NCBI RefSeq assembly: GCF_041381155.1 | Contig: NC_091135.1 | Span: 46,861,086-46,925,085 of the forward strand | Origin: Argopecten irradians | Lineage: Eukaryota > Mollusca > Bivalvia > Pectinida > Pectinidae | Length of the DNA stretch: 64,000 nt | Reading direction: 5' to 3' | Shown here: one piece after another, positions 1 to 52,900 of the stretch | How positions within the stretch are numbered: position 1 is the stretch's first letter | Layout: every line of letters starts with the position of its first letter | Position numbers and translations under genes: made by a program | Notes under the pieces: model-generated | The model's input: only the letters and a program-made list of their open reading frames with translations | Databases searched by the model: none | What the model was told of the DNA's origin: nothing

Positions 1-826
1 GATATTAATGCAGTTCAGTTTTATTGCCAGTAGGTAAGCAAGATACCGGGTAAAACAATTACGATAAAATGCAGACAAACAAATATACATCAACATGATT
101 AATGTTGCATGAATACGATGTATAATTACTTAACTTAATTTAGCATTAAATCTTTGAAAATCTCATAATCCATCCTATATATAATTAACTTCACTTTCTT
201 TACATAAAACAATAAGGACTTTTAGGGTTAAATGATTACCTAGTGTTTTTGCGAGTCCTTATTCGACAACTTTTTTAATTATTCCTTGCGTTTTATTTTC
301 ATATGAACATGCAGAGCTAGGGCCCTCCTCAAAATCCAAGAGGTAACATCGGCAGCTTTGTTTAAAATGGAATGAGTATTCATGTTGTGCAATGGGATGT
401 AATTATTCTTGTAAATCTCAAAGGATATCCCTTTCCAGTATTTATATGCAATAAATAATAAACAACTTTTCAAAACTCCTCTGAAACTTTCCCAACAAAG
501 TTCATTCATTACACTTGAAACAATATATAAACCCATATCAGCTTTCATATGGAACAAGGGAAGTAACTCTGGTAGATCTAACCACGACCATTTGATATAT
601 TGTCTACCAGTATTGGAGAGGAACTCAGGCTTGCCCTCCTAAAATGACTACACTATACTGAATATGGATACTATATCAAATGAAGAACCCATTATCAATG
701 ATTTAAATTTACAACATACAGTCTACTCTTTTTTTGCTGTGTTATTTTGGTGTAAAGTACGTACAGCATATATATGCCAGAGCAGGGTTTGCGTTTAAGT
801 CGTCCTCATATCCTTTTATGCATAGA
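1..826. other. AT-rich flank without a recognised gene
   Basis: No exon with a recognisable protein family was found on either strand. A 92-codon minus-strand open frame (279-557) has no motif I recognise and no clear splice context. The GGGAAGTAACTCT motif near 555, which recurs near 42665, is of a type scattered through molluscan repeats. The stretch is probably intergenic or decayed repeat. Confidence 0.4.
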
Positions 827-1325
827 CAAGAGATCCCAGAGGTATCTTGGCCCCCACCAAAGAATGATATATGTCTGACATTGGAAAGAGGGATCTTTTC
901 TCTGCTTTTCAAATTTTTTCAAACATACTACATGTATACATGCAATTTGAGACAGATCGCTTCAGTACTTTCTGAGAAATAGTGGTAACAAACTTCTATT
1001 ATCAAAATCCAAAATGGCAGCCTGTCGGCCATCTTGGCCACCCATCAGTCCCAAAATGCACAACAAGGGCTCTCGGGGGAAATTTGAAACAGATCCCTTT
1101 GGTACTTTCTATGAAATAGTGGTTACAATCTGCAATTATCAAAATATAAGATGGCATGTTCATGGATCGGTCCAAAAATGCAATATGCAAAATAAACGTC
1201 CTGGAGGAACCTTGACATAAAATTTGAGACAGATCGGTTTAGAACTTCAAGTATCAAAATCCAAGATTGTGACCTGTCGGCCATCTTGTTCACTGATCGG
1301 TCCCAAAATGCAATTTTCAAGACTT
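827..1325 (+). mobile_element. Decayed pearl/HINE-like element, truncated
   Basis: It begins CAAGAGATCCCAGAGG, almost the same head as the fuller element at 52702. This is followed by about three diverged core repeats with the same phrases: 'atcaaaatccaagatgg', 'cggccatcttg', 'gatcggtcccaaaatgca' and 'gaaatttgagacagatc'. The ACGG microsatellite and terminal hairpin of the full copy are missing, so the 3' half is lost. The architecture matches what is known of pearl elements/HINEs (Helentron-associated non-autonomous elements) in bivalves. The family name is an inference. Confidence 0.6.
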
Positions 1326-1339
1326 GGCTATAGCTATAG

Positions 1340-3091
1340 AGGAAATTATGCCAGTAGTCAGTACAACAGAAAACAAATGTTCAACCTTTTCTTTGTTATT
1401 TTTATTGATTTTGATGTTTTAACATTCCAACTAATAAATATTCCCCTACTCTGGGACGGAGAGACAGGATTATCACTACAAATGGTACAATTTAAATAAC
1501 GACTCTCTAATGTCCATATAACCAAAAAATATTTTTTGGTCTTGAGCATATATCAGACTATAAGAAATAATTTGCAAATGATGAGTATATTTAGTCATAT
1601 TGAAAATGTAGCAATTTTTCGGGTACAAAAACATTTAAGTCATGCATGATAGAATTGTAGAATAAATTACCGGTATAAAAGCTAGAAATATGTACTGTAT
1701 GTAACATACTATTTACAATACACAAATATATATATATATATGGCACGTGCCATATAAATATATATATATGTACTGTAAATAGTATGTTGCACACAGTAAT
1801 AATATCCATGGCCAGAAAACACTTAACAGATAATAAAGTAAACATGATTTTGATACTTTGTGTCATCTCAGATCTTCTGATTTGTCTGTTTTAACCATGC
1901 AAAGGATTTTATTATCTAGTGAGCATATCTAGCCATTTTAGTCTTTTAAATTTGTAGTTTTGATAAAAAATTTTTTTTATAGATATGTATACAAGAGTTT
2001 CTGAACTATTTTGATGCAACATATACATGTACCAGATATGTGGACACTGAAATGTCGATTATGGAAGACATGCAATTACACTGGATAAGTTAATATTTAA
2101 CTGGTTTGTCATTCTTAAAAGCATATATAAAATCTTATTTTACAACCAAGTAAAACACCTAATTATAGTATAATGAACATAATATCAATTAAAAGGATTT
2201 CCTGGAGATTGTTACAAGTAACCAGTAAATCATTATAGGTTATAATTATAATAAAAATTGGTATACATAAATTAAATAAATTACTTACTAAATATATATG
2301 AATGTTGTCCTAACAGAGCACTAGAAACACTTTATAGTGTTAGTGTAGTGTACATACATCAGTGTTTTATACACAATTTTGTATTGATTTACATGTACTT
2401 ATTAAATAATAACCAGACAGTTCCCTATATAACTACAATGTATAAATACTCTTTCCATCTGACAGTCACATTTCAGACACAATCATACATACAGGCACAT
2501 GATTTAACATTCTTCTCTTTTAGTTCACAGACATATAACCATTTAAAATTTCAAAAATATGCCAATATCTTGACTAGTATATATTAACCACAAGGCATGA
2601 ACAATATTTCACAACTTATCTCTTCTAGTACCAGGTATGTATATACACATCTATACGACTAGAGTAAGGCATACACTGTAACATGAACAAATATTATGTT
2701 ATATTATATTTTTTGTGTGTGTATTTGTAATCTCATGTAAATGGGGAAATAAAGATTATCTATTTATCTAGGACATTTATTAGGTATATGTTCCTTTAAT
2801 AAAATAAGTCAAATTATCAGTTAATTTGATCCATGAGGTCTTGCTGCCATATAACACATATTGACAGTGATTGTTTTAATGTAAATTTTGGGCCGAATAA
2901 AGGCCCCTTCCCCTAGATTAATTTTACTGTATTTTCCCAATTTGATGTAAATATTTTCCCAAATAAAGAAAACCTCTCTAAAATATACATATTTCAAGAA
3001 AAATAAAATAAGATATAAATTTTTCCCAATTGAAAAGGTAAAGGCCCTCGAAATGATTGAGCAAGAAAATCACTGTTATTACAAACTATAA
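1340..3091. other. Gene-free AT-rich stretch with small repeats
   Basis: No coding exon is recognisable. It contains an imperfect palindrome with an AT core (1692-1798). Around 2690-2772 there is a sequence ending in AATAAAG followed by TATCTATT-type repeats, which resembles the 3' tail of a retroposon. Part of this stretch may be the 3' untranslated region of the minus-strand FITM2 copy, whose stop codon is at 3581-3583. Confidence 0.35.
1692..1798. repeat. Imperfect palindrome with AT-dinucleotide core
   Basis: A left arm at 1692-1720 (TACTGTATGTAACATAC and onward) is matched in reverse by a right arm at 1770-1798. They flank (AT)n runs and a central GGCACGTGCC palindrome. It could form a hairpin of about 100 bases. 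It may be a tiny foldback MITE, but no target-site duplication is evident. Confidence 0.55.
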
Positions 3092-5933
3092 GGAGAGAAT
3101 GGATATTATCATTATGAACAAAGTGAATCCTTCACTGAGAAACTGTTACCATACTTAAAATTGCACATCCCAGCTTAGTTTAGTTGGCAAAAATGATTTA
3201 AATTGCTCAGATCAAGACAACTCTGTCTTTTGGGCTAATATATCAATGTCGGGGATGACAAATAAAATTGTTATGAATTACAAAATTGTATATCATTTAC
3301 AAAATTTCACAAGGTAATATATGAACACAGAAAAAACAAAATAGGGAAACAAGTCACTAAAAGTCAGTATAACATAGTTATATGCATATAGGTACAGTTT
3401 GAAGTCAGAACACTGATGTTTAACTTTCACATTACATCCAATAAGATGTTCTTAAAAGGCCCTCATAAATCCAGACAGGCAGACACAAAACTGTGTCAAA
3501 CAGCTAGATGGAAACTATATGACAACAGACACACTTATGCCATATGGAATAGAATTTCAAAAAGTGGAAGAATTGCATTGTCATTCACACTTTGTGAATC
3601 TTAGGGGACTAACACCAGATTGTAAAATTCCACAATTTGAACGTATAATCATCCTATAGCTGATAAACCAGCATCCAACTGCAATGAAAGCTGCAGATAC
3701 TTTTTGGGTAAGGGTATGAAATCGATACACTGTGCTGATTATGAGCATAAATTCCCACAACACTGTAAGGACAGCAAGAAATATAACGTTTATTTTAATA
3801 TACGGAGTCAGTTCCTTATATGCCTGTTTTGTGGTTCGTATCTCACTTTCCTTTATATTTTTCAGATCTGCAAGATTTTCTTTATCGAGAATAGTCTCAA
3901 GCTTTGACCAATCTTTGAAAAATTTCACTTCTTCAGATATAGTCAGCAGGTTGTGAATCAGAAGGAACACATGTCCAGAAATGTCAAAACCTAGCCATGA
4001 CTGTCCAGCCTTATTACAGGAAACTCTTGAAGGATAAATAGGTTCTGTACATATTCCAACCACAGACTCTACGTAATTTAAAGCTGACGTCACTGCATAC
4101 CACCAAAATGTTGCTAGAGCAAGTCGAAGGAAATGTAATTTGACCTGTGGCCATTTGCCAAGCGAGTACACGAAGCTGGTCATGCCAGTGAATGACGAGA
4201 GAGACGCCAATGTCCATCCCCATCCTAACTTTACAAAGAACTGGTTGAATATGTTGTGGGAATCGGAGAAGTATGATCTCGGTAAGGCCATGACATCAGC
4301 CAAAATAGATCCAGCCATCACTCCTATTAGGTAGAGACCTATTTTCACCGCAGTATCGGCAAGTAGGACCTTTTTACACATTTTCAAAACAATCATCAAG
4401 AAGAATTCACCTATATGTGTCGGTGGAGGTAGTGGCTTCTTGCCCTGGCCTCGCGTTTTTCGCTGATCATTAAATCGTTGGGAGCCAATAGGGCCGGATT
4501 GACGTCTCACTCATAGAGAATGGATATTATCATTATGAACAAAGTGAATCCTTCACTGAGAAACTGTTACCATACTTAAAATTGCACATCCCAGCTTAGT
4601 TTAGTTGGCAAAAATGATTTAAATTGCTCAGATCAAGACAACTCTGTCTTTTGGGCTAATATATCAATGTCGGGGATGACAAATAAAATTGTTATGAATT
4701 ACAAAATTGTATATCATTTACAAAATTTCACAAGGTAATATATGAACACAGAAAAAACAAAATAGGGAAACAAGTCACTAAAAGTCAGTATAACATAGTT
4801 ATATGCATATAGGTACAGTTTGAAGTCAGAACACTGATGTTTAACTTTCACATTACATCCAATAAGATGTTCTTAAAAGGCCCTCATAAATCCAGACAGG
4901 CAGACACAAAACTGTGTCAAACAGCTAGATGGAAACTATATGACAACAGACACACTTATGCCATATGGAATAGAATTTCAAAAAGTGGAAGAATTGCATT
5001 GTCATTCACACTTTGTGAATCTTAGGGGACTAACACCAGATTGTAAAATTCCACAATTTGAACGTATAATCATCCTATAGCTGATAAACCAGCATCCAAC
5101 TGCAATGAAAGCTGCAGATACTTTTTGGGTAAGGGTATGAAATCGATACACTGTGCTGATTATGAGCATAAATTCCCACAACACTGTAAGGACAGCAAGA
5201 AATATAACGTTTATTTTAATATACGGAGTCAGTTCCTTATATGCCTGTTTTGTGGTTCGTATCTCACTTTCCTTTATATTTTTCAGATCTGCAAGATTTT
5301 CTTTATCGAGAATAGTCTCAAGCTTTGACCAATCTTTGAAAAATTTCACTTCTTCAGATATAGTCAGCAGGTTGTGAATCAGAAGGAACACATGTCCAGA
5401 AATGTCAAAACCTAGCCATGACTGTCCAGCCTTATTACAGGAAACTCTTGAAGGATAAATAGGTTCTGTACATATTCCAACCACAGACTCTACGTAATTT
5501 AAAGCTGACGTCACTGCATACCACCAAAATGTTGCTAGAGCAAGTCGAAGGAAATGTAATTTGACCTGTGGCCATTTGCCAAGCGAGTACACGAAGCTGG
5601 TCATGCCAGTGAATGACGAGAGAGACGCCAATGTCCATCCCCATCCTAACTTTACAAAGAACTGGTTGAATATGTTGTGGGAATCGGAGAAGTATGATCT
5701 CGGTAAGGCCATGACATCAGCCAAAATAGATCCAGCCATCACTCCTATTAGGTAGAGACCTATTTTCACCGCAGTATCGGCAAGTAGGACCTTTTTACAC
5801 ATTTTCAAAACAATCATCAAGAAGAATTCACCTATATGTGTCGGTGGAGGTAGTGGCTTCTTGCCCTGGCCTCGCGTTTTTCGCTGATCATTAAATCGTT
5901 GGGAGCCAATAGGGCCGGATTGACGTCTCACTC
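3092..5933. repeat. 1,421 bp tandem duplication, two apparently identical units
   Basis: Unit 1 (about 3092-4512) and unit 2 (about 4513-5933) match at a constant offset of 1,421 bp, with no difference noticed. At the junction, GACGTCTCACTC runs straight into ATAGAGAATGG; at the end of unit 2 the same GACGTCTCACTC continues as CGGCCAT. Only unit 2 therefore keeps the natural 5' end of the gene it carries. Identity this high means either a very recent duplication or an assembly duplicate. Confidence 0.9.
3581..4510 (-). pseudogene. Extra FITM2 copy lacking its start codon
   Basis: This frame is identical in protein to FITM2 at 5002-5940 from Arg5 to the stop codon. Upstream of codon GTG (Val4; complement of 4508-4510) the duplication junction replaces the first three codons and immediately brings an in-frame TGA. 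The original ATG is therefore absent. The first internal methionine is about 38 residues in and would remove the conserved N-terminal cytosolic part. It has no promoter of its own apart from the 3' end of the next unit. It may be a non-functional recent duplicate, an alternative 3' exon source, or an assembly artefact. Confidence 0.6.
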
Positions 5934-5940
5934 CGGCCAT
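5002..5940 (-). CDS. FITM2: Fat storage-inducing transmembrane protein (FITM2-like)
   Basis: Single-exon frame of 312 residues. FIT proteins are ER membrane proteins; FITM2 acts as an acyl-CoA diphosphatase needed for ER integrity and lipid-droplet budding. The family core is present: several hydrophobic segments, WGWTLASL near 100-107, and GFDISGHVFLL at about 177-187 with the first conserved histidine (His183). VYRFHTLTQKV at about 264-274 carries the second conserved histidine (His268), matching human VYFHNLSQKV. I start at MAGVRRQSG (ATG complement of 5938-5940); the frame continues 37 codons upstream, but that part looks like 5' UTR. Human FITM2 is 262 residues; the extra length is mostly the basic, proline-rich N-terminus. 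It lies head-to-head with the ZFAT gene. Confidence 0.92.
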   Translation of the reverse strand: MAGVRRQSGPIGSQRFNDQRKTRGQGKKPLPPPTHIGEFFLMIVLKMCKKVLLADTAVKIGLYLIGVMAGSILADVMALPRSYFSDSHNIFNQFFVKLGWGWTLASLSSFTGMTSFVYSLGKWPQVKLHFLRLALATFWWYAVTSALNYVESVVGICTEPIYPSRVSCNKAGQSWLGFDISGHVFLLIHNLLTISEEVKFFKDWSKLETILDKENLADLKNIKESEIRTTKQAYKELTPYIKINVIFLAVLTVLWEFMLIISTVYRFHTLTQKVSAAFIAVGCWFISYRMIIRSNCGILQSGVSPLRFTKCE

Positions 5941-7254
5941 TTTGTCGAAAGTGTGACGTGCATGACGGTGCATTCTATTACAAACATTTAATATTTGTTC
6001 AACAAATAATACTAAAAATATCATATTTACATAGAAAATAAAAATATCCATTTTTATATCTATACTATTATACAGAGTGTAAAATATTGATATAAGTGGT
6101 AAAATTATGAGAATAATCGGAGAAATACTTTAAATTTATTAACATGTTTTAACATTCGGAATCAAACACGCCATTCCTTCTGTCACGTGATCCGATTATA
6201 TTTGGCAGCCATTTGTCAGCCGCTACAAGAAGAAGAAATAAGTACAGAAGACAATTTATCAGGTTAAAACAGAATTGTTATATCTAATCAGATATTGTAT
6301 GATAGCAAAAATTTATTGACGCTCTAAAACATGAAATTTATACGTTTTTAGAATGCTCCCAAAATAAGTTGCTAGCTTTCTGCACGACAAAATTGATGTT
6401 GAGTCAGTTTTCAAGACAAATGTGTACGGGAGCACTGTTTCGAACTTCGTCAGAACTGTGAGCTTTCAAATCCAAACTTAAGAGCATTTTAAGAGACCCA
6501 ATTTATTGTCTTCGAAACGTAGTTGATTAATGAGAAAATGATTCTCATTCCTTATAGTTTGAAAAAAAAATGTGTATGGGGCCATTCACAGGGTAACTAA
6601 TTACTAAATTTCCATATATGGTGTCATGTGGTTTATATTGTTAACCTCCTTAATACAGATAGATAAGTCATTGGTTAAAAAAAGAGATTAAAACTATTGA
6701 TTACAAAAAAGAGATTAACCAAAAAGATTTTCTAAGATAAATTATTACCATGGAAAGTTATTTTGTTTGTTATTTAAGTTCTTTAATAACTCACAGGATT
6801 ACTACAATTTCAATTAATTTCCTCAAATTAACATGGTACCTTTTCTTTCAAACATAGTACTAATATGGTTAATACACGAGACCTTTAAATAACTTAATAT
6901 TTCTTGGTTATTGGTTAACTCAATCATGATCAACAGCTATATTTATATAGTAATTTTCTTGTAGAAAAGTTACGTACATTGTTCCTTTAAGGAGTGAAAG
7001 AATTAAAGATTGACATACAAAATTATTTAGTAACATTGTCACGAATGTAGGGTATCATTGATTCGTTTATTCAGCTGGGGCGAAATCATTTTTGGGATCC
7101 AATAATAATTTTGTTAAAAATTAAACTATACTCAGTTAGTTGTTTCTGACAAAATCATACTTTGGTGATCACATTTCCAACACTTAATGTATGTATTTGG
7201 AATAATGAAAATAATTTTGAATTTGAAAAGTATTTTGATATTTCATATTGACAG
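5941..7254. promoter_or_regulatory. Divergent intergenic region between FITM2 and ZFAT, with ZFAT 5' UTR
   Basis: FITM2 reads leftward from 5940 and ZFAT rightward from an ATG at 7336. A CACGTG E-box is at about 6184-6189 and a GCAGCCATTT (YY1-like) motif near 6204. TTATCAG followed by GTTAAA near 6260 could be the donor of a ZFAT non-coding first exon. The first coding exon begins after the acceptor ACAG at 7251-7254. Between 6300 and 7250 I see only AT-rich sequence, presumably the first intron. The promoter assignment is inferred from layout. Confidence 0.4.
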
Positions 7255-7335
7255 GTAAAATTAACAGAGATGTTGAGCATTGCTTGATGATCTTGGGTAG
7301 CTCAGGTGTAACCAGCCTTAACAAGACAAGCAGTC

Positions 7336-10300
7336 ATGCCAGCAGCAGACTTGTTTATTTGTGGCTCCTGCCATGCAAACTTCAGTGACATTGACAGCTT
7401 TATGCAGCACAAGAAGGAGCCTTGTGGGCCAAAAAATACAGGCACAGAGGTCTTCACTGGTTCAACAGATGGAGGCACAGAGACAATCATACCCCTCAAC
7501 GTCGGTCAGTATGTCAGATATATACTGTAGTTTGATATGTGAGATTAGAGTTTGACTGGTGCCTACACTCTTCATGCATTATTAGGTTCACATCTAAGTA
7601 TTTGTTCCATTATTTATTCCAAACAGTATATTGTTAATTATATGTATGATAATTAACTACATTCTTAATTAATCAGAATCCTGTTTTAAGTTTTAGCGTG
7701 TAAAAATCATATACCTTTCTAGACCCTAGTTAGTAATATCTGTCTGACATGACAAATACTGATATAGAATATGATTATGATCAGACTTACTCACCAGCTA
7801 TGAGCCTTCCTCCAACTTGTAAATCTTCAAAACTTGGCTATTGATGTAGAACGCCACATAGAAATAATCAAACTATTGTGTTGTAATGAATGTAAGATAA
7901 AAATTACCCACTTCAATAAAGAAAACATACCTGTATGTTGTCCTTTTACAGAGACACTGAACAATGCTGTGATGACCTGTACTGAGCCGACCGATGGTTC
8001 AGAACCTCAGACAGTGATCATTATACAGGGCAACTCCAACGAAACTACTGATCTCTCACAGACCATCACAATGCAGGGCACCTTCTCTACAGCAGAAGAT
8101 GGGCAGACAACATTCATCCCTGATCCGTCTACCTCTACTGCTGCTACGGGAGTACAGTCCAACCCTGTACCTAATCTTACAGAGACACCAACACAGACTC
8201 CAGTATCAGGTAAGACTGACCACATTCACCCCTGACCTGTCTACTGCTGGTGTCCAGTCCAACCCTGTACCTAATCTTACAGAGACACCAACACAGACTC
8301 CAGTATCAGGTAAGACTGACCACATTCACCCCTGACCTGTCTACTGCTGGTGTCCAGTCCAACCCTGTACCTAATCTTACAGAGACACCAACACAGACTC
8401 CAGTATCAGGTAAGACTGACCACATTCACCCCTGACCTGTCTACCGCTGGTGTCCAGTCCAACCCTGTACCTAATCTTACAGAGACACCAACACAGACTC
8501 CAGTATCAGGTAAGACTGACCACATTCACCCCTGACCTGTCTACTACTGGTGTCCAGTCCAACCCTGTACCTAATCTTACAGAGACACCAACACAGACTC
8601 CAGTATCAGGTAAGACTGACCACATTCACCCCTGACCTGTCTACTGCTGGTGTCCAGTCCAACCCTGTACCTAATCTTACAGAGACACCAACACAGACCC
8701 CAGTATCAGGTAAGACTGACCACATTCACCCCTGACCTGTCTACCGCTGGTGTCCAGTCCAACCCTGTACCTAATCTTACAGAGACACCAACACAGACTC
8801 CAGTATCAGGTAAGACTGACCACATTCACCCCTGACCTGTCTACTACTGGTGTCCAGTCCAACCCTGTACCTAATCTTACAGAGACACCAACACAGACCC
8901 CAGTATCAGGTAAGACTGACCACATTCACCCCTGACCTGTCTACCGCTGGTGTCCAGTCCAACCCTGTACCTAATCTTACAGAGACACCAACACAGACTC
9001 CAGTATCAGGTAAGACTGACCACATTCACCCCTGACCTGTCTACCGCTGGTGTCCAGTCCAACCCTGTACCTAATCTTACAGAGTACACTAATCTTACAG
9101 AGACACCAGTATCAGGTAAGACCTGACCACATTCACCCCTGACCTGTCTACTGCTGGTGTCCAGTCCAACCCTGTACCTAATCTTACAGAGACACCAACA
9201 CAGACTCCAGTATCAGGTAAGACTGACCACATTCACCCCTGACCTGTCTACCGCTGGTGTCCAGTCCAACCCTGTACCTAATCTTACAGAGACACCAACA
9301 CAGACCCCAGTATCAGGTAAGACTGACCACATTCACCCCTGACCTGTCTACTGCTGGTGTCCAGTCCAACCCTGTACCTAATCTTACAGAGACACCAACA
9401 CAGACCCCAGTATCAGGTAAGACTGACCACATTCACCCCTGACCTGTCTACCGCTGGTGTCCAGTCCAACCCTGTACCTAATCTTACAGAGACACCAACA
9501 CAGACGCCAGTATCAGGTAAGACTGACCACATTCACCCCTGACCTGTCTACTGCTGGTGTCCAGTCCAACCCTGTACCTAATCTTACAGAGACACCAACA
9601 CAGACCCCAGTACCAGGTAAGACTGACCACATTCACCCCTGACCTGTCTACCGCTGGTGTCCTGTCCAACCCTGTACCTAATCTCACAGAGACACCAACA
9701 CAGACCCCAGTACCAGGTAAGACTGACCACATTCACCCCTGACCTGTCTACTGCTGGTGTCCAGTCCAACCCTGTACCTAGTCTTACAGAGACACCAACA
9801 CAGACTCCAGTATCAGGTAAGACTGACCACATTCACCCCTGACCTGTCTACTGCTGGTGTCCAGTCCAACCCTGTACCTAATCTTACAGAGACACCAACA
9901 CAGACCCCAGTACCAGGTAAGACTGACCACATTCACCCCTGACCTGTCTACTACTGGTGTCCAGTCCAACCCTGTACCTAATCTTACAGAGACACCAACA
10001 CAGACTCCAGTATCAGGTAAGACTGACCACATTCACCCCTGACCTGTCTACCGCTGGTGTCCAGTCCAACCCTGTACCTAGTCTTACAGAGACACCAACA
10101 CAGACCCCAGTATCAGATAAGACTGACCACATTCACCCCTGACCTGTCTACTGCTGGTGTCCAGTCTAACCCTGTACCTAGTCTTACAGCGACACCAACA
10201 CAGACCCCAGTATCAGGTAAGACTGACCACATTCACCCCTGACCTGTCTACCACTGGTGTCCAGTCCAACCCTGTACCTAGTCTTACAGAGACACCAACA

Positions 10301-13300
10301 CAGACCCCAGTACCAGGTAAGACTGACCACATTCACCCCTGACCTATCTGCTGCTGGAGTACAGTTCAACCCTGTACCTAGTCTTACAGAGACACCAACA
10401 CAGACCCCAGTACCAGGTAAGACTGACCACATTCACCCCTGACCTATCTGCTACTGGAGTACAGTTCAACCCTGTACCTAGTCTTACAGAGACACCAACA
10501 CAGACCCCAGTATCAGGTAAGACTGACCACATTCACCCCTGACCTGTCTACTACTTGTGTCCAGTCTAACCCTGTACCTAGTCTTACAGCGACACCAACA
10601 CAGACCCCAGTATCAGGTAAGACTGACCACATTCACCCCTGACCTGTCTACCACTGGTGTCCAGTCCAACCCTGTACCTAGTCTTACAGAGACACCAACA
10701 CAGACCCCAGTACCAGGTAAGACTGACCACATTCACCCCTGACCTATCTGCTGCTGGAGTACAGTTCAACCCTGTACCTAGTCTTACAGAGACACCAACA
10801 CAGACCCCAGTACCAGGTAAGACTGACCACATTCACCCCTGACCTATCTGCTACTGGAGTACAGTTCAACCCTGTACCTAGTCTTACAGAGACACCAACA
10901 CAGACCCCAGTATCAGGTAAGACTGACCACATTCACCCCTGACCTGTCTACTACTTGTGTCCAGTCCAACCCTGTACCTAGTCTTACAGAGACACCAACA
11001 CAGATTCCAGTATCAGGTAAGACTGACCACATTCACCCCTGACCTGTCTACTGCTGGTGTCCAGTCCAACCCTGTACCTAGTCTTACAGAGACACCAACA
11101 CAGACCCCAGTATCAGATTAGACTAACCACATTCACCTTTGGACCGTCTGCTGCTAGAGTCCAGTCTGCATGTATGCAACCTTTTACTGTACATTAGAAC
11201 AGTACATTCAGAAGTAAATAAGAAAACCATTAGGTATAACAAACTGATAATATTATTTTATATAATTCAATTAAACATCTGTGACAAAATACTGCTTGGA
11301 TGGATAAACAAGCTATTATACAAAGAGAAATAACTCATATAAAATTGATGAAAACTAAAACATTAAATAACTCCTAATGAACCAATGATAGTCTTTTAGC
11401 GAGCATATTTTTATCATTGGCAGGAAAGAAAAGAGGACGACCAAGGCTGCAGAAAGGAACTGTTCGTAAACAAGTGGAAGAAAAACCTCCTTTAAAGCCA
11501 TCTAAACCAGAAATCAGTAAGCAAGAACATTTATTCAATTTGTTCTTAATTGGATAATACTATCATCAGAATATTCCATGACTACAGTTACATACCTAAT
11601 ATATTCAATGAATACAACTGGCTGACAGAAGCACTATGGTAAAATAGAGAAATACATACCATAAAATAAAATAATTCTCCAAGACGTGGAATGACATCAA
11701 CATCTACTGTTGGTTACATACTATCAATTAATCATGATGCCTGGTAGTTGTGCATTTTACCAATACCTTCAATACAAGAATCAACTTTTAACCCTGAATT
11801 GATACAAGATTTTGATATTACTTCTACTACTAGTAATGATTAGCTTCGATAATGTGTTTTCTGTGTGTGTCTGTTACAGGTTCTGATGGCCGGTTTGTCT
11901 GTACAAGCTGTAAACGTTCGTTTACCAAAGAGAGGTTCTTTAATACACACAAGTGTATGGGAACGACTGACTACATAGACCTCACCAGGAAACAAGTCAT
12001 TGATCTGGAGTTAGGTAAAATTGGATCTCTTCATATTTACAGATAAGACTTTTTTAAAATCTATGTGTTTTAACACAAGTGTTTGTCAACATTCAATCAA
12101 TATACAGTAAAAACCCCTGTAACTCGAACAGCAGTATGTCAGTAGTTCGAGGAATACAGGGTATTCGACTCATCCGAGGTGGCATATCGAGTCAAATTCG
12201 GGTCTGAAACATGACAAACATACTCCCATAACTAGAGTCGACTGGCAGCCTTTTTTTATCGAACGCTTTGCGACTGTCGACACACGATGCAAAATAACAT
12301 TGTTGGAGCACAGGTGTTCGTTTCAATATAATATAAGTATAATACTGGTCAAGGTCTATAACTCGGCCGTCCATATACACTACCCATTCAGATAAAGTTA
12401 TATTAACCAGACTAAGATATGAATAGAATACTCTCAATCGCAGCCAGAAATTTATCTTTAATTTGGTATAGATACATATATATCATCCGTAAAATGCACT
12501 AGGTATCCAAACATCGAAAACAATAGATTCAACGGTCGGACACTGTGGTTCTCCGATAACACCCAGGCTCTATGGGTAGCTCAAAAACCACTGCAATGTC
12601 AACATTTCAGCTTCATATGAATTAAAGTTTGGTAAAAACAAACTTACCGCTATGTTAGTTTTTAACTATATACCATCCATATGCTCAATACAGCCTTTTG
12701 AATTTCCGAATGAAAAAATGTGTGTCTCTAGCCGTCATGTTGATATGTGTGTAGTACATTTGTTATTCGATCTCGGCGTTGATTGGTCAATTTAATTTCG
12801 AGAGCCAATCAACGCCGACAAAACAAATCTACTGCACCACATACTTACATGGCGGCTAGAGACATAAATTTTTCAATCGGAAATTTCAAAGGGCTACGTT
12901 AGGCAAATGGATGATATTTATCCATGGATTTACTAACCGGTAAAGTTTGTTTTCTACCAAACTTTTTATTCTATAAACGCTGAAGTGTTGACATGCAGTG
13001 GTTTTGAGCTACCCATTAGAGCCCTGGCGTGTTTATCGGTAGGACACCACAGTGTCCGACCAGTTGAAATCTATCTGTTTTCCGATGTTTCTGGATACCT
13101 AGTGACATTTATACGGCATGATATATATTGTATCATATACCAAATTAAAGATAAATTATCTGGCTGTCGATTGAGAGTATTCCTATTATCATATCCTATA
13201 CGGTTTGGTTAATAATCATACTTTTTCTGAAATTGGGTAGTGTTATATGGCCGGCCGAGTTATGGACCTTGACCCAATATTATACTTATACCTATATTAG

Positions 13301-24021: not shown

Positions 24022-27000
24022 TTACATTGAGATGTTCTGGTATCCGGTAGACTTGGCCACCTCCCGTACTTTGGGGCTGGTTTTGACTGCCACAGTGATC
24101 AGGTTTAGTATGCTGTGTTGAACACTGTCTGGGACACTCTTACCTTAAAGCCAACAGTATTAAATCATTGTTAACTGGCTTGTTTGTTATCCCATACAAA
24201 GACCTCGTGTTTTATGGGTACTACCAACATTAAAATTTTAATTTCTAATGGGTACCACCAATATTAAAATTTTAATTTCTAATTTCATTTATGTAATTGG
24301 CAATCCTAACAAAACTAAAATCAACAACATGCAGAGAACAAAATTGACGCTTTTCAAAAAGATTTACTGGAATACTCCCTATGTAGATAAGTTTTTACAA
24401 GGTTTTTAGTAAGCAGTTATTGCTACCTGCAATAATCATAGATATTATTTGATGCTGTGTCTACTAAATGAACGATGAAGAAAGTAAACCGTTACATTGA
24501 GGATTGGATACAGATGTTCTTTGGATACAGAAAGTAATAGGAAAAAGTATATTAACTTCATTAATTTGATAACAAAACTCTTATACATCAGACATTTTGG
24601 TAACTAATTAGTGCAGTGGTCTAGGGTTACATACCAGACATTTTAGTCAGTAGTTTGTTCCAGACAGGTAACATCAGACATTTTGGTAAGTAATTAGTGC
24701 AGTAGTCTAGTGTTACATACCAGACATTTTAGTCAGTAGTTTGTTCCAGACAGGTAACATCAGACATTTTGGTAAGTAATTAGTGCAGTAGTCTAGTGTT
24801 ACATACCAGACATTTTAGTCAGTAGTTTGTTCCAGACAGGTAACATCAGACATTTTGGTAACTAATTAGTGCAGTAGTCTAGTGTTACATACCAGACATT
24901 TTAGTCAGTAGTTTGTTCCAGACAGGTAACATCAGACATTTTGGTAACTAATTAGTGCAGTAGTCTAGTGTTACATACCAGACATTTTAGTCAGTAGTTT
25001 GTTCCAGACAGGTAACATCAGACATTTTGGTAACTAATTAGTGCAGTAGTCTAGTGTTACATACCAGACATTTTAGTCAGTAGTTTGTTCCAGACAGGTA
25101 ACATCAGACATTTTGGTAACTAATTAGTGCAGTAGTCTAGTGTTACATACCAGACATTTTAGTCAGTAGTTTGTTCCAGTGAGGTAGAACTCCTGTAGAC
25201 AGCAGTGTATGGGACAGGACTGGATACAGAGGGATACACTCACAGATGGCTGGAAAGTTAAAAGTCTCGTGTCACACAATCTCAAAAATCATCTAGAATA
25301 TTAAACAATACATTCTCAATTCTCCTAAGGCTGATAGTTGATATTTCAATCTTTCAATTTTCACACAAGCGAAAAAAACAAGCAGGAAGTATAAGCCAGC
25401 ATACCCTCTCTCTCTGTATCTGCTGACATGATTTGAAAGTGAACAAAGTACATTCAAGGCTTTGCGTGAGAAAACACTTGGAACAGTCTCCCATCATATG
25501 TTGTTCACTCTAGGACAGTTAAACAATTTGAATATGCACTTGATTCACATTGGAAAAATCAGCCACAAAAGTATCTATACACTGGAAAATAAATCCGTAA
25601 ATTTCTAAGAGGTGACTATTACAGGATTATAAAAAATCCTGTACATGTTTACATGTATGTTGTCAGAATAAATCTATGTATGTATGATAAGCCAAAAATA
25701 AATGAGTTTCTGGCTCCCCACTAGCCTTGAAGAGTGAGATGCCAGAGTTCAGACACATCCTCCCAGACAGGTGTGTACATATTACTGGATCCACACACTT
25801 ACATTGGAGGGTGAGATTCCAGAGTTCAGACACATCCTCCCAGACAGGTGTGTACATATTACTGAATCCACACACTTACATTGGAGAGTGAGATTCCAGA
25901 GTTCAGACATGTCCTACCAGACTGGTGTGTACATATTACCGATTCCACACACTTACATTGGAGAGTGAGATTCCAGAGTTCAGACATGTCCTACCAGACT
26001 GGTGTGTACATATTACCGATTCCACACACTTACCTACTTACCTTGGAGAGTGAGATTCCAGAGTTCAGACACATCCTCCCAGACAGGTGTGTACATATTA
26101 CTGAATCCACACACTTACCTTAGAGAGTGAGATTCCAGAGTTCAGACACATCCTCCCAGACAGGTGTGTACATACCACTGAATCCACACACTTACCTTGG
26201 AGAGTGAGATTCCAGAGTTCAGACACATCCTCCCAGACAGGTGTGTACATACCACTGAATCCACACACTTACCTTGGAGAGTGAGATTCCAGAGTTCAGA
26301 CACATCCTCCCAGACAGGTGTGTACATACCACTGATTCCACACACTTACCTTGGAGAGTGAGATTCCAGAGTTCAGACACATCCTCCCAGACAGGTGTGT
26401 ACATATTACCGATTCCACACACTTACCTTGGAGAGTGAGATTCCAGAGTTCAGACACATCCTCCCAGACAGGTGTGTACATATTGCTGATTCCACACACT
26501 TACCTTGGAGAGTGAGATTCCAGAGTTCAGACACATCCTCCCATACAGGTGTGTACATATTACCGATTCCACACACTTACCTTGGAGAGTGAGATTCCAG
26601 AGTTCAGACATGTCCTACCAGACTGGTGTGTACATATTACCGATTCCACACACTTACATTGGAGAGTGAGATTCCAGAGTTCAGACACATCCTCCCAGAC
26701 AGGTGTGTACATATCACTGATTCCACACACTTACCTTGGAGAGTGAGATTCCAGAGTTCAGACACATCCTCCCAGACAGGTGTGTACATACCACTGAATC
26801 CACACACTTACCTTGGAGAGTGAGATTCCAGAGTTCAGACACATCCTCCCAGACAGGTGTGTACATATCACTGAATCCACACACTTACCTTGGAGAGTGA
26901 GATTCCAGAGTTCAGACACATCCTCCCAGACAGGTGTGTACATATTGCTGATTCCACACACTTACCTTGGAGAGTGAGATTCCAGAGTTCAGACACATCC

Positions 27001-29647
27001 TCCCAGACAGGTGTGTACATATTACTGATTCCACACACTTACCTTGGAGAGTGAGATGCCAGAGTTCAGACACATCCTCCCATACAGGTGTGTACATATT
27101 ACTGATTCCACACACTTACCTTGGAGAGTGAGATTCCAGAGTTCAGACACATCCTCCCAGACAGGTGTGTACGTATCACTGAATCCACACACTTATCTTG
27201 GAGAGTGAGATTCCAGAGTTCAGACACATCCTCCCATACAGGTGTGTACATACCACTGAATCCACACACTTACCTTGGAGAGTGAGATTCCAGAGTTCAG
27301 ACACATCCTCCCAGACAGGTGTGTACATATCACTGAATCCACACACTTATCTTGGAGAGTGAGATTCCAGAGTTCAGACACATCCTCCCAGACAGGTGTG
27401 TACATACCACTGAATCCACACACTTATCTTGGAGAGTGAGATTCCAGAGTTCAGACACATCCTCCCAGACAGGTGTGTACATACCACTGAATCCACACAC
27501 TTACCTTGGAGAGTGAGATTCCAGAGTTCAGACACATCCTCCCAGACAGGTGTGTACATATCACTGAATCCACACACTTATCTTGGAGAGTGAGATTCCA
27601 GAGTTCAGACACATCCTCCCAGACAGGTGTGTACATACCACTGAATCCACACACTTACCTTGGAGAGTGAGATTCCAGAGTTCAGACACATCCTCCCAGA
27701 CAGGTGTGTACATATCACTGAATCCACACACTTATCTTGGAGAGTGAGATTCCAGAGTTCAGACACATCCTCCCAGACAGGTGTGTACATATCACTGAAT
27801 CCACACACTTATCTTGGAGAGTGAGATTCCAGAGTTCAGACACATCCTCCCAGACAGGTGTGTACATACCACTGAATCCACACACTTACCTTGGAGAGTG
27901 AGATTCCAGAGTTCAGACACACATCCTCCCAGACAGGTGTGTACATATCACTGAATCCACACACTTATCTTGGAGAGTGAGATTCCAGAGTTCAGACACA
28001 TCCTCCCAGACAGGTGTGTACATACCACTGAATCCACACACTTACCTTGGAGAGTGAGATTCCAGAGTTCAGACACATCCTCCCAGACAGGGTGTGTACA
28101 TATTACCGATTCCACACACTTACCTTGGAGAGTGAGATTCCAGAGTTCAGACACATCCTCCCATACAGGTGTGTACATATTACCGATTCCACACACTTAC
28201 CTTGGAGAGTGAGATTCCAGAGTTCAGACACATCCTCCCAGACAGGTGTGTACATATCACTGAATCCACACACTTATCTTGGAGAGTGAGATTCCAGAGT
28301 TCAGACACATCCTCCCATACAGGTGTGTACATACCACTGAATCCACACACTTACCTTGGAGAGTGAGATTCCAGAGTTCAGACACATCCTCCCAGACAGG
28401 TGTGTACATATCACTGAATCCACACACTTATCTTGGAGAGTGAGATTCCAGAGTTCAGACACATCCTCCCAGACAGGTGTGTACATACCACTGAATCCAC
28501 ACACTTACCTTGGAGAGTGAGATTCCAGAGTTCAGACACATCCTCCCAGACAGGTGTGTACATATTGCTGATTCCACACACTTACCTTGGAGAGTGAGAT
28601 TCCAGAGTTCAGACACATCCTCCCAGACAGGTGTGTACATATTACTGATTCCACACACTTACCTTGGAGAGTGAGATGCCAGAGTTCAGACACATCCTCC
28701 CAGACAGGTGTATACATATTGCTGATTTCCACAATTTCCTTCTGCTTGTGAGACTTGCAAGTGAATGGACCCTTCACAAACGACATCACTACTGTGAAAA
28801 ACTTTGATTTCTTGTCGCAAAGCACTACAACAAAAGGTAAAAGCTTTTAATTCTTTTCACCTTCTTTGTTATTCCCTTTTCAGAGAGAATATAACACTAG
28901 AAATCCTCTTCTACAAAGTTAAATTCTCAAACATGAAATATGTCTCTACTTTATTACATATTACCTTATATTAGGTACTATTTCATGAGCAATTCATCAA
29001 GAAAATACTTAATTCTTGAGGCAAATCCATCCAATAGACATAAAACAAAGACACTACTGCATGCAAATGTGTACAGCATAATACCTAAATATCATTTCAA
29101 TTTCTACTATCACTTCTCCTTTGTTTATTATGATTTGACTTGGGGTATTGGAAATGTAAGCGCACAATATATGGTAAGTATTAATTGTGATTACTACTCA
29201 AACATAATACATCAGGAGTCTAATCGGTAGAGATTACAATATACAAGAGAAAGTATACATACCCCTGGAGGTTTTGTACTGTCTTAGTAGCAGGAACATT
29301 CCCAGGGTGACAAGGTTACACCAAGCTATTAGATAGTCCTCTTGGTTATCTAAAAGTGATCAAAATGTCACAAGTATTAATAACAGCTAACCAAACACAA
29401 ATTAAATGTTCTATACAATTATTTGTGAAACATTTGAATTTGTGTTAAAAATTTTCTTTTGAAATTATAAAGTGGTTAACATTACAGGGTATAACTATAC
29501 TTACAGAGAAGTGGGACAGCATCCACGACTTCCTGACACAGAGTGTGCATGTCTTTATCCTCACTGATCAGATCTTTCTCCAGTACCACTAGGTTCATCA
29601 GAGCTCCACACACTACCAGCAAACTTCCCTGAAAGAGAATCAATGGT

Positions 29648-29678
<31 letters not shown>

Positions 29679-32600
29679 CCGGTAATCTATCTAAATTCTA
29701 CCCTACTATCTCTATATATTCATGCATTCAATGTATATAAAGCCTTCACTGTAATAATAAATCCATATGATTTTTATGAAACGGAGCCTTTATTTGGAAA
29801 ATATGGTTCTAAATTGTATAAAAGATTAGGTATGAAATAGAAATCAAACAGGCTTTTTCTTAAGTTTACATTAAATTTCAAATAACAAATCATAAGAAAT
29901 CTACATGACAAACCCACTTATTGTATAATTACTAATATTCAGGGAGTTTTAATATCGCTGAATATGCTGATTCAACTGAATTTGCAAAATAGTTCAAAAA
30001 TAATCCCCAGCGAATAATTAAGCAAAATTGAACAATTAATGGTGAATCATGAACCAAATATGAGGTTGCAGTGACAAGTTCAATTAAGCTTTGACAAGCT
30101 TTTTCTTTAATTATATTGAAATAAAGGTCAAATGATATTTGACTTCTCCGTTGCCATAGCACTACTTACCTTTGCCTCTTTGCAGTCCTTTCCCTCCAAG
30201 ACTGAATTGAGACATAATTTAAAGTAGTCCACCAGCAGTGTCTGTGTGTGGTGGGTAAGCAGTATCTGCCGGGACTCGTCCTCTGCCAGGAAGTGACAGA
30301 ATGCTGGTAACAGGAAGCGTAGTAAGTCAATATTGTTACAATTTAGGCCACTTTGGAAGTTACCTCCATGCACACTACTGTCAGTTAGATCTACCCCACT
30401 GTCTGTCTCACAATCACCACACACCTCTGTACTAAACGACACTGACTTTGGTTTGGGGGAAGACTTTTCTGTCATATTGTTGTTCATTTCCTTCTGTTTT
30501 TTATCATTTGGCACTTTATCTCCTGAATTTGTCTCTGTCTTTCCAAGGCTTGACACATGTCCTCTCTCACTTGATTTTGAACTCTTGTCACATTTAATAT
30601 TACACTGTCCCATAGAAGTTGAAATAGAATCCTCAGCAGGTGCACTGCTTTGATTGACCTCTGACCCTGTGCTGATCAATGAGGATGAACTGTCCTGAGC
30701 AGACACTGGACCAACAGTGTGTTTTGGTTCTGAACGTTTCTGTGACTTGTTAACAGAATCCTGGTGTTGTTCAGAAGCTTCTGATGATGTTTTGTGAGTA
30801 CTGACTTTTGCCCTATTTCTGGATCGCATTTGTTGTTTACTACAAGATAAAAAAAATAACTGTTTTCCTTTAATATCATTTGAAATACAATCAGATTATT
30901 ACATGCTCATTGACACAACATGTCTTTGTGCCAATTTAGGTAAAACCCAGGTTTCTTTTCTGACAATTTTTTGGGTGTGTATTTATGCCTGTTATTTCTT
31001 ACAAAATATCAGAGATAATTTATCATTCAATGAAAAATCAGTTTTGAACAGGATTATATTTTTTATCTAATTTGTACTTCCTTCAGTTACTTTAAAAATT
31101 GTCACAATAGATGTAAACGCCCTTACGACACTTTGAGGAGGAAAGGCAGCAGGGCGTATGTGTATTCCTTGAGGGCTGAGGTCTCCTCCGACATCCAGAC
31201 ACCAAGGATTCGTACTGTGGCAATCACTACCGGCTCAGAGCATTTCTACAAGTTCAGGATCATATTACATATACATGCATCACAGTGAACAACATATTAT
31301 CACTATCAATGATCATAGTTAGATAGACTGTAATAAACATCACATCCTTATAGTTAACAATAGATATTTAACAACTTATATTATACATGTATGCATAGCA
31401 AAATGTCCGATAACCACACACTTATGGTATTTCAGAATTATTCAATAAAAGTTTACCCATGAAATACTGTTGAATGTCTGTAAACAAATTATACACAACC
31501 TTTAAGTCTTTAAATTATATCAAATTCTTTTAAGCAAATTCCTGTTTTTGTGAAACACAAATTCTTGTTTTGGAACATGCAAAGGAAAAGAATTTATTAA
31601 GAAATGCAAAAGAATCCAAATTTGGAAACATAATTGTTTATTTCATTTATTGACATTGTAATAAAAATTTAAAAGAATATTTTCGGAGAAGCTAGATTTT
31701 ATCCCTTGATGTATTTTGTTAACATCAAATGTTGTAACATACTGATAGTGCAAACATGCTTATTTTCATCGCAACTAATTTCAAGCATCTAATATGTCCC
31801 AGAAATTCAAAGTGATTTAATATTGCAAGTTCTGATTTTTAAGAATCACTTTTTTTTTAATTTGCATTCATTTATCTACGAAAATTTTCATGATTTAACT
31901 CTGAAATCAAATCACACACACAGAAGTAAGCTGGGCTACAGTAAAATAAGGGTTGGATACCGTTAAGAACAAGCAACTTTGTGGAATTTATATCCCCACT
32001 TTTGTTAATCAAAGGCCCATAAGTCTGCCAAGTAGGGTCCCATGAAAATGCCAATTAAAATTGGCCAAGGGGCCAAGACATTTAATTATGTTACCAAGTT
32101 TCAAGAAAATTCGCGAGTTATTGAACAAAAACAGACAAAAATGAAGTTTTTCGTTTATCAAAGGGCCATAACTCAGGAAAATAGGGTCCAATCAGAGTCC
32201 TGATTGAATTTGGCCAAGGCCCAGTGACATTTAACCATCATATCAACTTTTGAGAAAATCCGGTAATATTTGCAAAAGCATCAAACGGAAACATTCGAAA
32301 AGGCTGTATTTCGCTAATCAAAGGGCCATAACTATACCAAATAGGGTCGAATGATAGTGCCGAGCTAAAATCACTAAGATTCGTGGCAGTTATTGCATGG
32401 AAACCAAGCATTTTAGACAGAGACAGAAGGATGGACAGATCGACCCAAATTAATACCCCCAATTTCTATGAAAGCGGGGATAACAATATGGTACAAAACC
32501 ATTCTGTATCAATGACACAATACCAGTATTTGAAATACACTGGTTGTTTATCAAACTACATAAATTTCATTTTTCTTTAATGTTGTAATTTATATAAGAA

Positions 32601-49934: not shown

Positions 49935-52900
49935 CTACCGCGGTAAAACACGGCGTGGCTGTGGCTGCTGTTTTTGTTGAGATCTTGCTGTCGATAATTC
50001 TGATTCTGTAACATCGTCTTCATCATCTGTTTCCTCCTCTTCATCGTCGTCATCTTCATCGTCGTCGTCATCATCATCATCATCATCAAGATCCATTACC
50101 TATTTGTAACAGACAACATCATTATTTAAAGGTCGAAATATTTATTATGAAGAAGGTCTATGTAAGTTATTTCACAAAAACAATAATTATCTCTAAATCA
50201 CTGCAACATAACAAGTCTGAATAAATCATCTATTACATGGGCAATTAGCCTTGTCCTGTGTTAATAAATTACTTAAGGTTATTTGGCTTATCCTAGTAAG
50301 CCATTGTCTTTTTAAACTCCATGATAATCAAATATACAATGGAAGGATTTACAATTTTAGCACTGCAGTACAAGCTTTTATAAAGTCTCTTGTGCTGTCT
50401 ACCACATAAAAATTTACAACCAAGTCAAATAGAACAAACAGAGTGCTCAGGAATCTTACTGCTTTAGTTACCAGCCTAATGTTATTCGCATTATGTCTCC
50501 TCCATGATTAAATAATATGTTACACTTGTTTAAAACATACTTCTGTCACTATTATTATTCCACCATGCTTCAGAATAGATATATACAGGTATAATTGTGA
50601 CAGTTTTTTTATAAACTAGTCCTGTGTTAATGTTAGAACTATAATGATGGAAATGATCCTTTATGAATGTGATTATCAATATCCTACTTACTGGTATTCG
50701 TGTTCTTGACTGTGTTCCTGTGGGTGGTTTGGTGGGAGTGGATTGAGTACTTGTAGGGGCTGATTGTTGTCTGTTCATTTTGACAGGCGTTGTCTGCTTA
50801 GAGTTAGTGTTGGAGTTGAGAGAGGAATAGGACGAAGATCTGACCATATTCATCCTGGCTGCAGAATTTGGAGGGGTGAGCTTTGAACGGAATTCCTGTA
50901 ATCAAAATAAATTATTATACAATAAAATACAGGAAGTCAATTTTCAGGCTTTGATTTATAAAAAAATATATATTTAGTCATTTGATATACATGTCATTAT
51001 TTCCAATTTTCATATATATATACTAATCTTTAAAGGCCCACTACCTTTCCGAAACGGCCTTTAATTTTTAAAATGGGAATGTAAAACAAGATCGATAATA
51101 TTGTAAAGTCTTAAAAATTATTAACTTACCGTTCATACTACATTTATCATCACCTTCTGAACAATTTGATTAAAATAAATAAAATGTTTATTTTCATAAC
51201 GCGGGTCGTATTATGTTTCCCGCCGTCGTCCTAAATACCGCACGGTAGTTGATTATCATTGCGCCAGACGGCAAAACAGCGAATTGACTCTCCACTGTTT
51301 TCATATATTACGCAAGAAATCTTGCATATGTTTGGTGTCATAACCTTATTTTAGGTCATCGGTATGCATTTTCTGATGTTATTAATGTTTTTTAATAAAA
51401 ACCTTAATATTTTGCTCCAGAAAGGTAATGGGCCTTTAAGACATATACATGTCATTATTTCAACTTTTCATACTAATCTTTAAGTAAAATGTTTTGGTAT
51501 TACCCAGATTTTCTGCTATTGCTCTCTATCATAATTAATACTTCTAGTATTTTATATGGAAAAAAATTCAGTAAGTGTAGCAAGGTCCCTATATCATTCA
51601 CCTTAATTTGGTGAATTTGGGGCTGATTAAAGGACCCTTCCCCTAGAGTAATGTATTTTTCCAATTTTCATGTGAACGCATATTTCAAGTTTTCCCCTGA
51701 AATTATTGATTATGAAAATCACTGTACATAAAAGCTCCTGGTAAAGAAAAAAAACTCACTTCCATGTCCTCCTCGACATCAACAGATGATATATTCTGGT
51801 AGCACTGAGTGTACATCTCCAGGGCTTTAGCATGGAACATCATCTCAATGTTCACAAAGTCACTTAACATTTTCTGGAATATTATGGAATTTCTGGTATT
51901 AAAACACATATTCAAATAGTTCAAAATATGATCTAGAAACTTTTAATGTAAATAATTCATACATCTAAGGTAGTATTTTTAATATGAATTTCAGCTTAAG
52001 TGAAAATCAAATAAAGAATGAAAATAATTATTGATAAAACAAACTTTTCAGACATTTTTAAAACTGTATACTGTATGGTAACTGTGTTAACATGGTAATA
52101 TAATACAAACTGTATAGAGTAAAATACAATGGCAGGTTCCTTATGAATGAAAATTTTAACGAAAAAAATATATAACTCGGACATCGCCAAAAGGCCTTTA
52201 TGCCTTCACAGGCGTCTTCAGGCTTAAAGATGCCTGTAACGGCAGAAAGGCCTTGCGGCGAAATCTGAATTTTATTATTTTTTCATACAAATTTTATATA
52301 TAAACACACATGTTTTATGATAGCAATTTTATCCATCTCTCTGTCATTATGATACAGATTTGACCCACACCTTTATATCTTTAAGTTTTTCCAATTCAAA
52401 CTTGTCAACTTGTTGATGAAGGTTCTTTGATGTTCGAGATGCCTCAACACTGGCTTTCTGTAGCTCGGTCTCCGCCTGTGAGATCTGCGATCGGTCTCCT
52501 GGGTTCTTTTGTCTGAGCATGTCCAGCTTTTTCTTCTGTTTTGATTCTCTTTCCTGGGCTGTAAATGCTGATTTCAGGTCATTTTTCGCTTGTTTGCACT
52601 TAATTCCATAGTTACTCAAGGGCTGTACAACTTTGGCATCAAGTCTTGTTACCTGAAAAAAATTGTTAAAATAATTCAGTGTGTTTGTATGCTTTACACA
52701 ACAAGAGATCCCAGAGGGATCTTGGCGCCCACCAAAGATTGATCTATGTCTGACAAATGAAAGAGGGATCTTTTCTCTGCTTTTCAAACTTACACTTCTT
52801 TTTTCTGCTTTTCAAACTTTAAACTATCAAAATCCAAGATGGTGGTCACAAAATGCAATAGGCACAACTAGGGTCCTAGGGGAACCTACATATGAAATTT

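Follow-up and report, generated by a model that had tools for sequence, protein, structure and literature searches.

Tandem repeats that extend over an exon-intron boundary, termed mirages, have been described in the lancelet globin genes BflGb6 and BflGb9 and in Adh3, where regular splicing is reported to be undisturbed (PMC3087553); a mirage in troponin C is likewise reported not to interfere with splicing, and the same has been put forward as a suggestion for PGBD5 (PMC3902484). The units of the BflGb6 mirage are 81 to 100% identical, with concerted evolution acting inside the cluster and leaving out its edges (PMC3087553). In two related systems, tandem AGGT sites of human UBC can serve as donor as well as acceptor, so that the number of repeats varies (PMC10809524), and tandem duplication of a boundary founded a new intron in potato, as shown by RNA-seq reads (PMC4974935). 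Here we describe a 100-bp-period minisatellite in a ZFAT-like gene of the C2H2 zinc-finger type from Argopecten irradians, where it lies within the 3214-bp intron that separates coding exons 2 and 3. The analysis covered one stretch of 64,000 nucleotides (NC_091135.1, positions 46,861,086 to 46,925,085), referred to as the window and numbered from its first letter. Under the best reading the array is a large case of the published mirage kind, arising by duplication of an exon-intron boundary and probably spliced out whole, with 8209 joined to 11424. The gene model was called by hand from reading frame and GT-AG sites, and the designation of the intron as intron 2 counts coding exons only. The features on which the argument depends are as follows.

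7952 to 8209, plus strand: coding exon 2, 258 nt, phase 1 to phase 1, with the final ~107 nt as the source of the repeat unit (frame, splice sites, alignment with the unit)

8207 to 8215, plus strand: authentic exon 2 donor CAG/GTAAGA, identical to 27 unit donors (sequence, unit comparison)

8210 to 11116, plus strand: tandem array of 29 head-to-tail units, comprising 27 of 100 bp, one of 106 bp (9010 to 9115) and one of 101 bp (9116 to 9216) (Tandem Repeats Finder, unit cutting, alignment)

10217 to 10516, plus strand: three-unit block identical to 10617 to 10916, a higher-order duplication with a 400-bp step (unit comparison)

11117 to 11166, plus strand: degenerate last partial unit, donor lost (ATTAGA) (Tandem Repeats Finder, unit cutting)

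11424 to 11516, plus strand: coding exon 3, starting in phase 1 and encoding the AT-hook-like GKKRGRPR (frame and splice sites)

Tandem Repeats Finder reported a single array at 8155 to 11166 (period 100, 30.0 copies, 95% matches, score 5315). Units were defined by cutting after each CAG. An earlier sequence-only reading of this DNA had counted about 29 units of 100 bp; the number stands, while the length is exact for 27 units, the others being 106 and 101 bp long. Among the 27 units of 100 bp, 17 of the 100 positions are variable, in patterned blocks, and identical pairs of units are present within the array. The identical pairs, the duplicated block, a gradient of divergence from exon 2 (described below) and the degenerate last unit amount to homogenized units with a divergent cluster edge, a property of mirages. 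Searches with an exact 23-mer of the unit gave 0 matches in either viral or prokaryote contigs. Antisense open reading frames of 82 amino acids lie within the array; these were considered as features in their own right and rejected, being taken as products of the repetition.

Alignment of the units with the flanking exon demonstrated that nearly the whole unit, and not 27 nt alone, corresponds to the stretch of exon 2 between ~8103 and 8209 together with the donor, the unit thus spanning the exon-intron boundary of its host as in a mirage. The alignment has one extra base at its start and 1 to 3 gaps, depending on aligner and unit, that sum to 12 nt, a multiple of three. The final 55 nt of exon 2 show 0 differences to 8 of the 28 comparable units (the 106-bp unit being left out), and 7 of these 8 fall within the first ten units. 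Divergence from the exon tail grows along the array (Spearman 0.78, 28 units, neighbouring units being related and not independent). Read in the frame of the exon, the first unit gives VRLTTFTPDLSTAGVQSNPVPNLTETPTQTPVS and its counterpart in exon 2 gives TTFIPDPSTSTAATGVQSNPVPNLTETPTQTPVS. The exon carries GGGCAGACAACATTC at the site where the unit carries GTAAGACTGACCACATTC, and the AGAC common to both could have seeded the first duplication. As nearly all of the unit is homologous to exon 2, the array is an exon end and donor duplicated in tandem. This homology had been overlooked in the sequence-only reading, in which each unit was a 73-nt intron followed by a 27-nt in-frame microexon. Evolution of an acceptor within a true intron of 73 nt was rejected because nearly the whole unit is exon derived, and the acceptor-like sequence noted in each unit, although present, is copied coding sequence with the following counterpart in the exon.

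8171 to 8182, plus strand: CTAATCTTACAG within exon 2, coding PNLTE, the exonic counterpart of the "acceptor" of the units (sequence, alignment)

The acceptor of exon 2 itself (7946 to 7957) and the internal exonic "acceptor" (8177 to 8188) have 12 of 12 bases in common (TTACAGAGACAC), and the other ten acceptors of the gene have 3 to 8 of 12 in common with TTACAGAGACAC; over a wider stretch, only 17 of 32 bases are shared between the exon 2 acceptor and the internal site.

The splice signal copied with the exon end, a further property of mirages, is the donor. CAG/GTAAGA is found at 28 of 30 sites, counting the exon's own at 8209, and elsewhere in the window this 9-mer is absent from both strands. 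At two unit ends the donor is broken (ATAAGA after 10116 and ATTAGA after 11116), and a strong donor in every unit, as had been claimed, is therefore present in 27 of the 29. The likeness to the lancelet mirages lies in a tandem repeat that spans an exon-intron boundary and carries copies of a splice site. The locus differs from them in being another gene, in having 29 units at a donor boundary compared with 6 and 3 units in the BflGb6 haplotypes, and in having units that also hold an in-frame AG. In the potato RdRp and ATP2A1 cases, duplication of a boundary or of an AGGT segment similarly supplies signals for potential new introns (PMC4974935), but here the copies sit inside an existing intron and are known from the DNA. 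Under most of the wordings tried, no literature on bivalve minisatellites at splice sites turned up. In other invertebrates, work has been published on minisatellites close to alternative splicing in C. elegans (PMC4039745), on introns arising by tandem duplication in Drosophila (PMC2891723) and on a minisatellite within an earthworm intron (PMC12783039).

In the mechanism that we favour, a segment of ~100 bp comprising the end of exon 2, the donor and the first intron bases was duplicated and expanded into the intron, leading to the present 29 units and one degenerate unit, as alignment shows. Unequal exchange and conversion would keep the units alike and, to judge from the gradient, extend to the final 55 nt of the coding exon; a similar picture would be expected had the array recently grown from its exon side. 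The spliceosome would join the first donor at 8209 to 11424 and discard the array, and the later donors would be mostly silent because only the first abuts a real exon. Removal could occur in one step or stepwise between AG/GT sites, giving the same mRNA either way. The in-frame 27-nt segment would be a by-product of copying a phase 1 exon tail that happens to hold CTTACAG. On the outcome itself, a single junction from 8209 to 11424, the analysis agrees with the sequence-only reading, which had named skipping of the whole array as the simplest possibility.

Extensions of exon 2 to 8309, 8409, 8509, 8609 and 11116 (that is, by 1, 2, 3, 4 and all 29 units) were translated, and all stop after GKTDHIHP. 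This stop sits in the first unit, so that any later donor used alone would bring it into the message. A functional message would, therefore, need the first donor, inclusion of exact 27-nt segments or traceless stepwise removal between AG/GT sites.

An alternative is that later donors, or exons of 52 nt, are used noticeably and generate early-stop transcripts, the length of the array thereby lowering the amount of full-length protein. In keeping with this, none of the 27 unit donors differs from the real donor, all five extensions end in the stop just described (the one at 11116 being without a working donor) and a 52-nt exon would give VQPCT*. However, the papers on mirages report no interference with splicing (PMC3087553, PMC3902484), and we consider appreciable use of this kind unlikely.

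A similarly low probability attaches to dual-specific or recursive splicing, in which the AG/GT at each unit end would serve first as acceptor and then as donor and the intron would be removed in multiples of 100 nt, leaving the mRNA unchanged. Sites of the required form, CAG/GTAAGA, occupy 28 of the 30 positions, and human data indicate an enrichment of dual-specific sites among AGGT sequences of tandem repeats (PMC10809524). The resemblance to the human UBC and VCX3A arrays extends to the AG/GT at the unit boundaries, where inter-unit splicing removes whole units (PMC10809524). UBC units, however, are 228 nt long, in frame and coding, whereas the units described here are intronic and of 100 nt; none of the unit lengths (100 bp in 27 cases, 106 and 101 bp in one case each) is divisible by three, and retention gives a stop. 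Few pyrimidines precede the unit-end AG (7 of 16), which scores only at the 73rd percentile of window AGs; a tendency to weakness is, on the other hand, reported for known dual-specific sites (PMC10809524).

The interpretation put forward in the sequence-only reading, that each unit is spliced as a 73-nt intron and a 27-nt microexon, with ETPTQTPVS peptides inserted in variable number before the AT-hook, depends on signals internal to the unit. These are listed for unit 1.

8230 to 8236, plus strand: branch-like CCCTGAC (unit positions 21 to 27), which does not vary among the 27 units of 100 bp (unit comparison)

8256 to 8257, plus strand: AG at unit position 47-48 (GTGTCCAG), the first AG past the branch-like site and 22 nt from its A by hand count (sequence)

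8281 to 8282, plus strand: AG at unit position 72-73 (CTAATCTTACAG), the acceptor of the sequence-only reading, which defines the 27-nt segment (sequence, unit comparison)

8283 to 8309, plus strand: 27-nt "microexon" (ETPTQTPVS), equal to the final 27 nt of exon 2 (translation, alignment)

Much of the description of these segments was borne out. The segments run from phase 1 to phase 1, are open and contain no stop. All units of 100 bp and the 101-bp unit, 28 in total, have a segment of 27 nt, the length that had been stated for every unit; the 106-bp unit has one of 33 or 15 nt, still a multiple of three. All four peptides listed earlier are present among the 27 units of 100 bp (ETPTQTPVS in 17, ETPTQTPVP in 7, ATPTQTPVS in 2 and ETPTQIPVS in 1). 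Joining the segments of all 27 donor-bearing units yielded 717 nt in frame and without a stop; inclusion without frameshift is thus correct as a statement about the frame, while the maximum is 239 residues and not about 260. The 27 units of 100 bp divide into 14 with CTAATCTTACAG as the acceptor-like sequence, 12 with CTAGTCTTACAG and one with CTAATCTCACAG; the terminal AG is kept in 27/27, and CTAATCTTACAG is also found in the 106-bp and 101-bp units. The branch-like CCCTGAC was correctly placed at about 47 nt before this acceptor, as its A lies 47 nt from the end of the AG by hand count.

Several of these properties, and a number of further observations, weigh against removal of the array as a whole or in favour of microexon use. 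Splice weight matrices were constructed from 11 acceptors and 10 donors (that of exon 2 being left out) of one hand-called gene, and scores obtained with them therefore carry little weight. CTTACAG scored 2.54, at the 80th percentile of 3803 window AGs; this is inside the range of the real acceptors of the gene (-3.05 to 11.0, each left out in turn), and the score consequently neither rules out nor favours its use. An in-frame AG at least as strong was present in only 228 of 2000 dinucleotide-shuffled units, 141 of them stop-free. The net insertion of 6 nt in the unit at 9010 to 9115 retains a multiple of three with either acceptor, and the length change in the "intron" part of the unit at 9116 to 9216 is 1 nt; with one case each, this proves little. 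The longest invariant run in the unit, positions 2 to 29, covers 28 nt over the donor and branch-like site (P = 0.034 under random placement, for a run picked after looking), and such invariance could also be expected from some use in splicing. The lancelet globin paper notes that the splice signals of a mirage could serve as cryptic sites and presents a model in which a unit becomes an exon (PMC3087553), so the microexon idea has a published precedent as a hypothesis; variable repeat numbers from the UBC arrays point in the same direction (PMC10809524). In duplicated human genes, repeats at exon-intron boundaries can give rise to novel introns, and expansion of a boundary minisatellite can create alternative splicing, a likeness to the present array, although those internal tandem repeats have a mean of four 30-bp units and RNA support (PMC2812944), while the array is known from its sequence. 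Skipping of the array is itself inferred from the DNA.

Against microexons stands, first, the AG at unit position 47-48, which the sequence-only reading had overlooked. It lies 25 nt upstream of the CTTACAG AG, scored 4.28 against 2.54 (90th percentile of the 3803 window AGs); one unit among the 27 of 100 bp has lost it (GTGTCCTG). The name branch-like is given by reference to the branch consensus, and the first AG after a branch point is usually preferred; by this rule the AG at 47-48 would be preferred over CTTACAG, and it would yield the 52-nt exon that ends in the stop VQPCT*. A further AG is present 8 nt upstream of the terminal AG in the 12 units of 100 bp with CTAGTCTTACAG. The shortest intron called in the gene is 278 nt, compared with the 73 nt proposed here. 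By way of comparison, Schistosoma micro-exon genes resemble the proposed arrangement in having a series of short exons but have introns of up to 5 kbp and encode secreted proteins (PMC10526429); the putative microexons here are spaced by 73 nt.

Constraint on the segments was examined by comparison of variable sites in the 27 units of 100 bp. The 27-nt segment exhibited no extra constraint relative to the rest of the unit (4 of 27 sites variable in the "microexon" and 13 of 73 in the "intron"; Fisher p = 1.0), and variable sites numbered 5, 5 and 7 for the three codon positions. Selection for microexon peptides was rejected, there being no signal in this comparison. Among the signals, variability was 1/9 for the donor, 0/2 for the terminal AG, 2/12 for the acceptor stretch, 0/7 for the branch-like site, 4/11 for the upstream AG stretch and 4/27 for the 27-nt segment; protection of splice signals was rejected, as none of these six classes is significantly low. 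The occurrence of a strong in-frame AG was also compared with the exon tails of the gene, 3 of 11 of which have one scoring at least as high as that of the unit; exon 2 is a miss only through a rounding tie with the threshold, leaving 3 hits among ten others, and one of these (exon 11) is inflated by the acceptor of exon 11 itself, 5 nt away. The in-frame AG is unremarkable for coding tails and not frequent in random units, its weight depending on the null. The proposed splice-assembled peptide repeat was not upheld: segment and acceptor are duplicated coding sequence with no added constraint, the first AG past the branch-like site scores higher and yields a stop, and mirages are reported not to disturb splicing. 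Splicing of the units as introns and microexons is, in our view, improbable.

Even more doubtful is a scheme in which the exon tail and the minisatellite coevolve and the spliceosome reads the array as a ladder. Certain tissues or alleles would include the 27-nt microexons and so extend a transcription regulator by up to 239 residues of ETPTQTPVS repeats ahead of its AT-hook, and array length would set the length of the peptide and, through stop-bearing by-products, the amount of protein. An assembly artefact or chance repeat is highly improbable: one exact duplicate of 1419 bp in another part of the window may have come from the assembly, but the 27 units of 100 bp show differences at 17 of 100 positions, arranged in patterned blocks, the repeat score is 5315 and there is homology over ~100 nt to the adjoining exon.

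The identity of the host gene was examined by domain and structure matches. Pfam matched C2H2 fingers in the frames containing exons 5 and 9, and the ZFAT chains 2rsi, 2elv and 2rsj are among the matches listed for two exons (60 of 78 and 60 of 66 being listed). The 2elv match falls on an atypical finger (E 9.3e-8); among the matches listed, PRDM9 and other proteins score higher overall. The C-terminal exons presumably resemble those of human ZFAT, and GKKRGRPR in exon 3 is what we take to be an AT-hook-like motif. At most, the gene can be described as ZFAT-like, and to that extent the identity first given to it is right. The flanking splice sites of 7952 to 8209 and 11424 to 11516 were correctly identified, as judged by frame and GT-AG sites, and these two exons join in phase 1 as had been stated; introns 1 to 6 of the hand-called model are all phase 1. 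The model loses frame between exons 10 and 11, indicating that an exon or a boundary is missing there; exons 1 to 3 are unaffected. The first of these is placed as follows.

7336 to 7504, plus strand: coding exon 1 of the ZFAT-like gene, starting at its own ATG and ending in the donor TCG/GTCAGT, with an upstream untranslated exon possible (frame and GT-AG sites)

Other repeats and coding frames were observed in the window. The segments at 3094 to 4512 and 4515 to 5933 are exact copies of one another in tandem (1419 bp, 0 mismatches, step 1421), with a minus-strand coding frame for FIT (fat storage-inducing transmembrane), Pfam having been run on the second copy only; the duplication is of very recent origin or else arose in the assembly. 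Two minisatellites lie downstream of the ZFAT-like gene, at 25725 to 28719 (77 bp, 38.8 copies) and at 24585 to 25186 (86 bp, 7.0 copies). The longest match common to the 77-bp and 86-bp repeats is 10 bases, and the units tested had no other match in the window at E 0.001. A 155-bp tandem repeat at 52845 to 54183 has a unit that recurs at 940 to 1327 with 70-82% identity and is a dispersed repeat that also forms an array, and a 157-bp tandem repeat at 59060 to 60160 (7.0 copies, 95% matches) has no match elsewhere in the window. These four minisatellites were considered as exon-boundary repeats and rejected, since two units of each, compared with the window, gave no outside match except that of the 155-bp unit at 940 to 1327. 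Minus-strand coding frames at 52350 to 52811 and 30131 to 30895 matched the FAM92 and neurochondrin families, respectively, in Pfam.

If the array is indeed a boundary-duplication minisatellite that is spliced out whole, the locus would be a natural experiment on 5' splice site choice, with the authentic donor followed by 27 identical donors, mostly in steps of 100 bp. Each of these later donors is preceded by identical or nearly identical exonic sequence, and any of them used alone would lead to an early stop. The last 18 codons of the coding exon are identical to 8 of the 28 comparable units, and unequal exchange could, therefore, rewrite the protein from the intron. The remaining interest of the array is in the competition among 28 identical donors and in the coupling of a coding tail with an intronic minisatellite.

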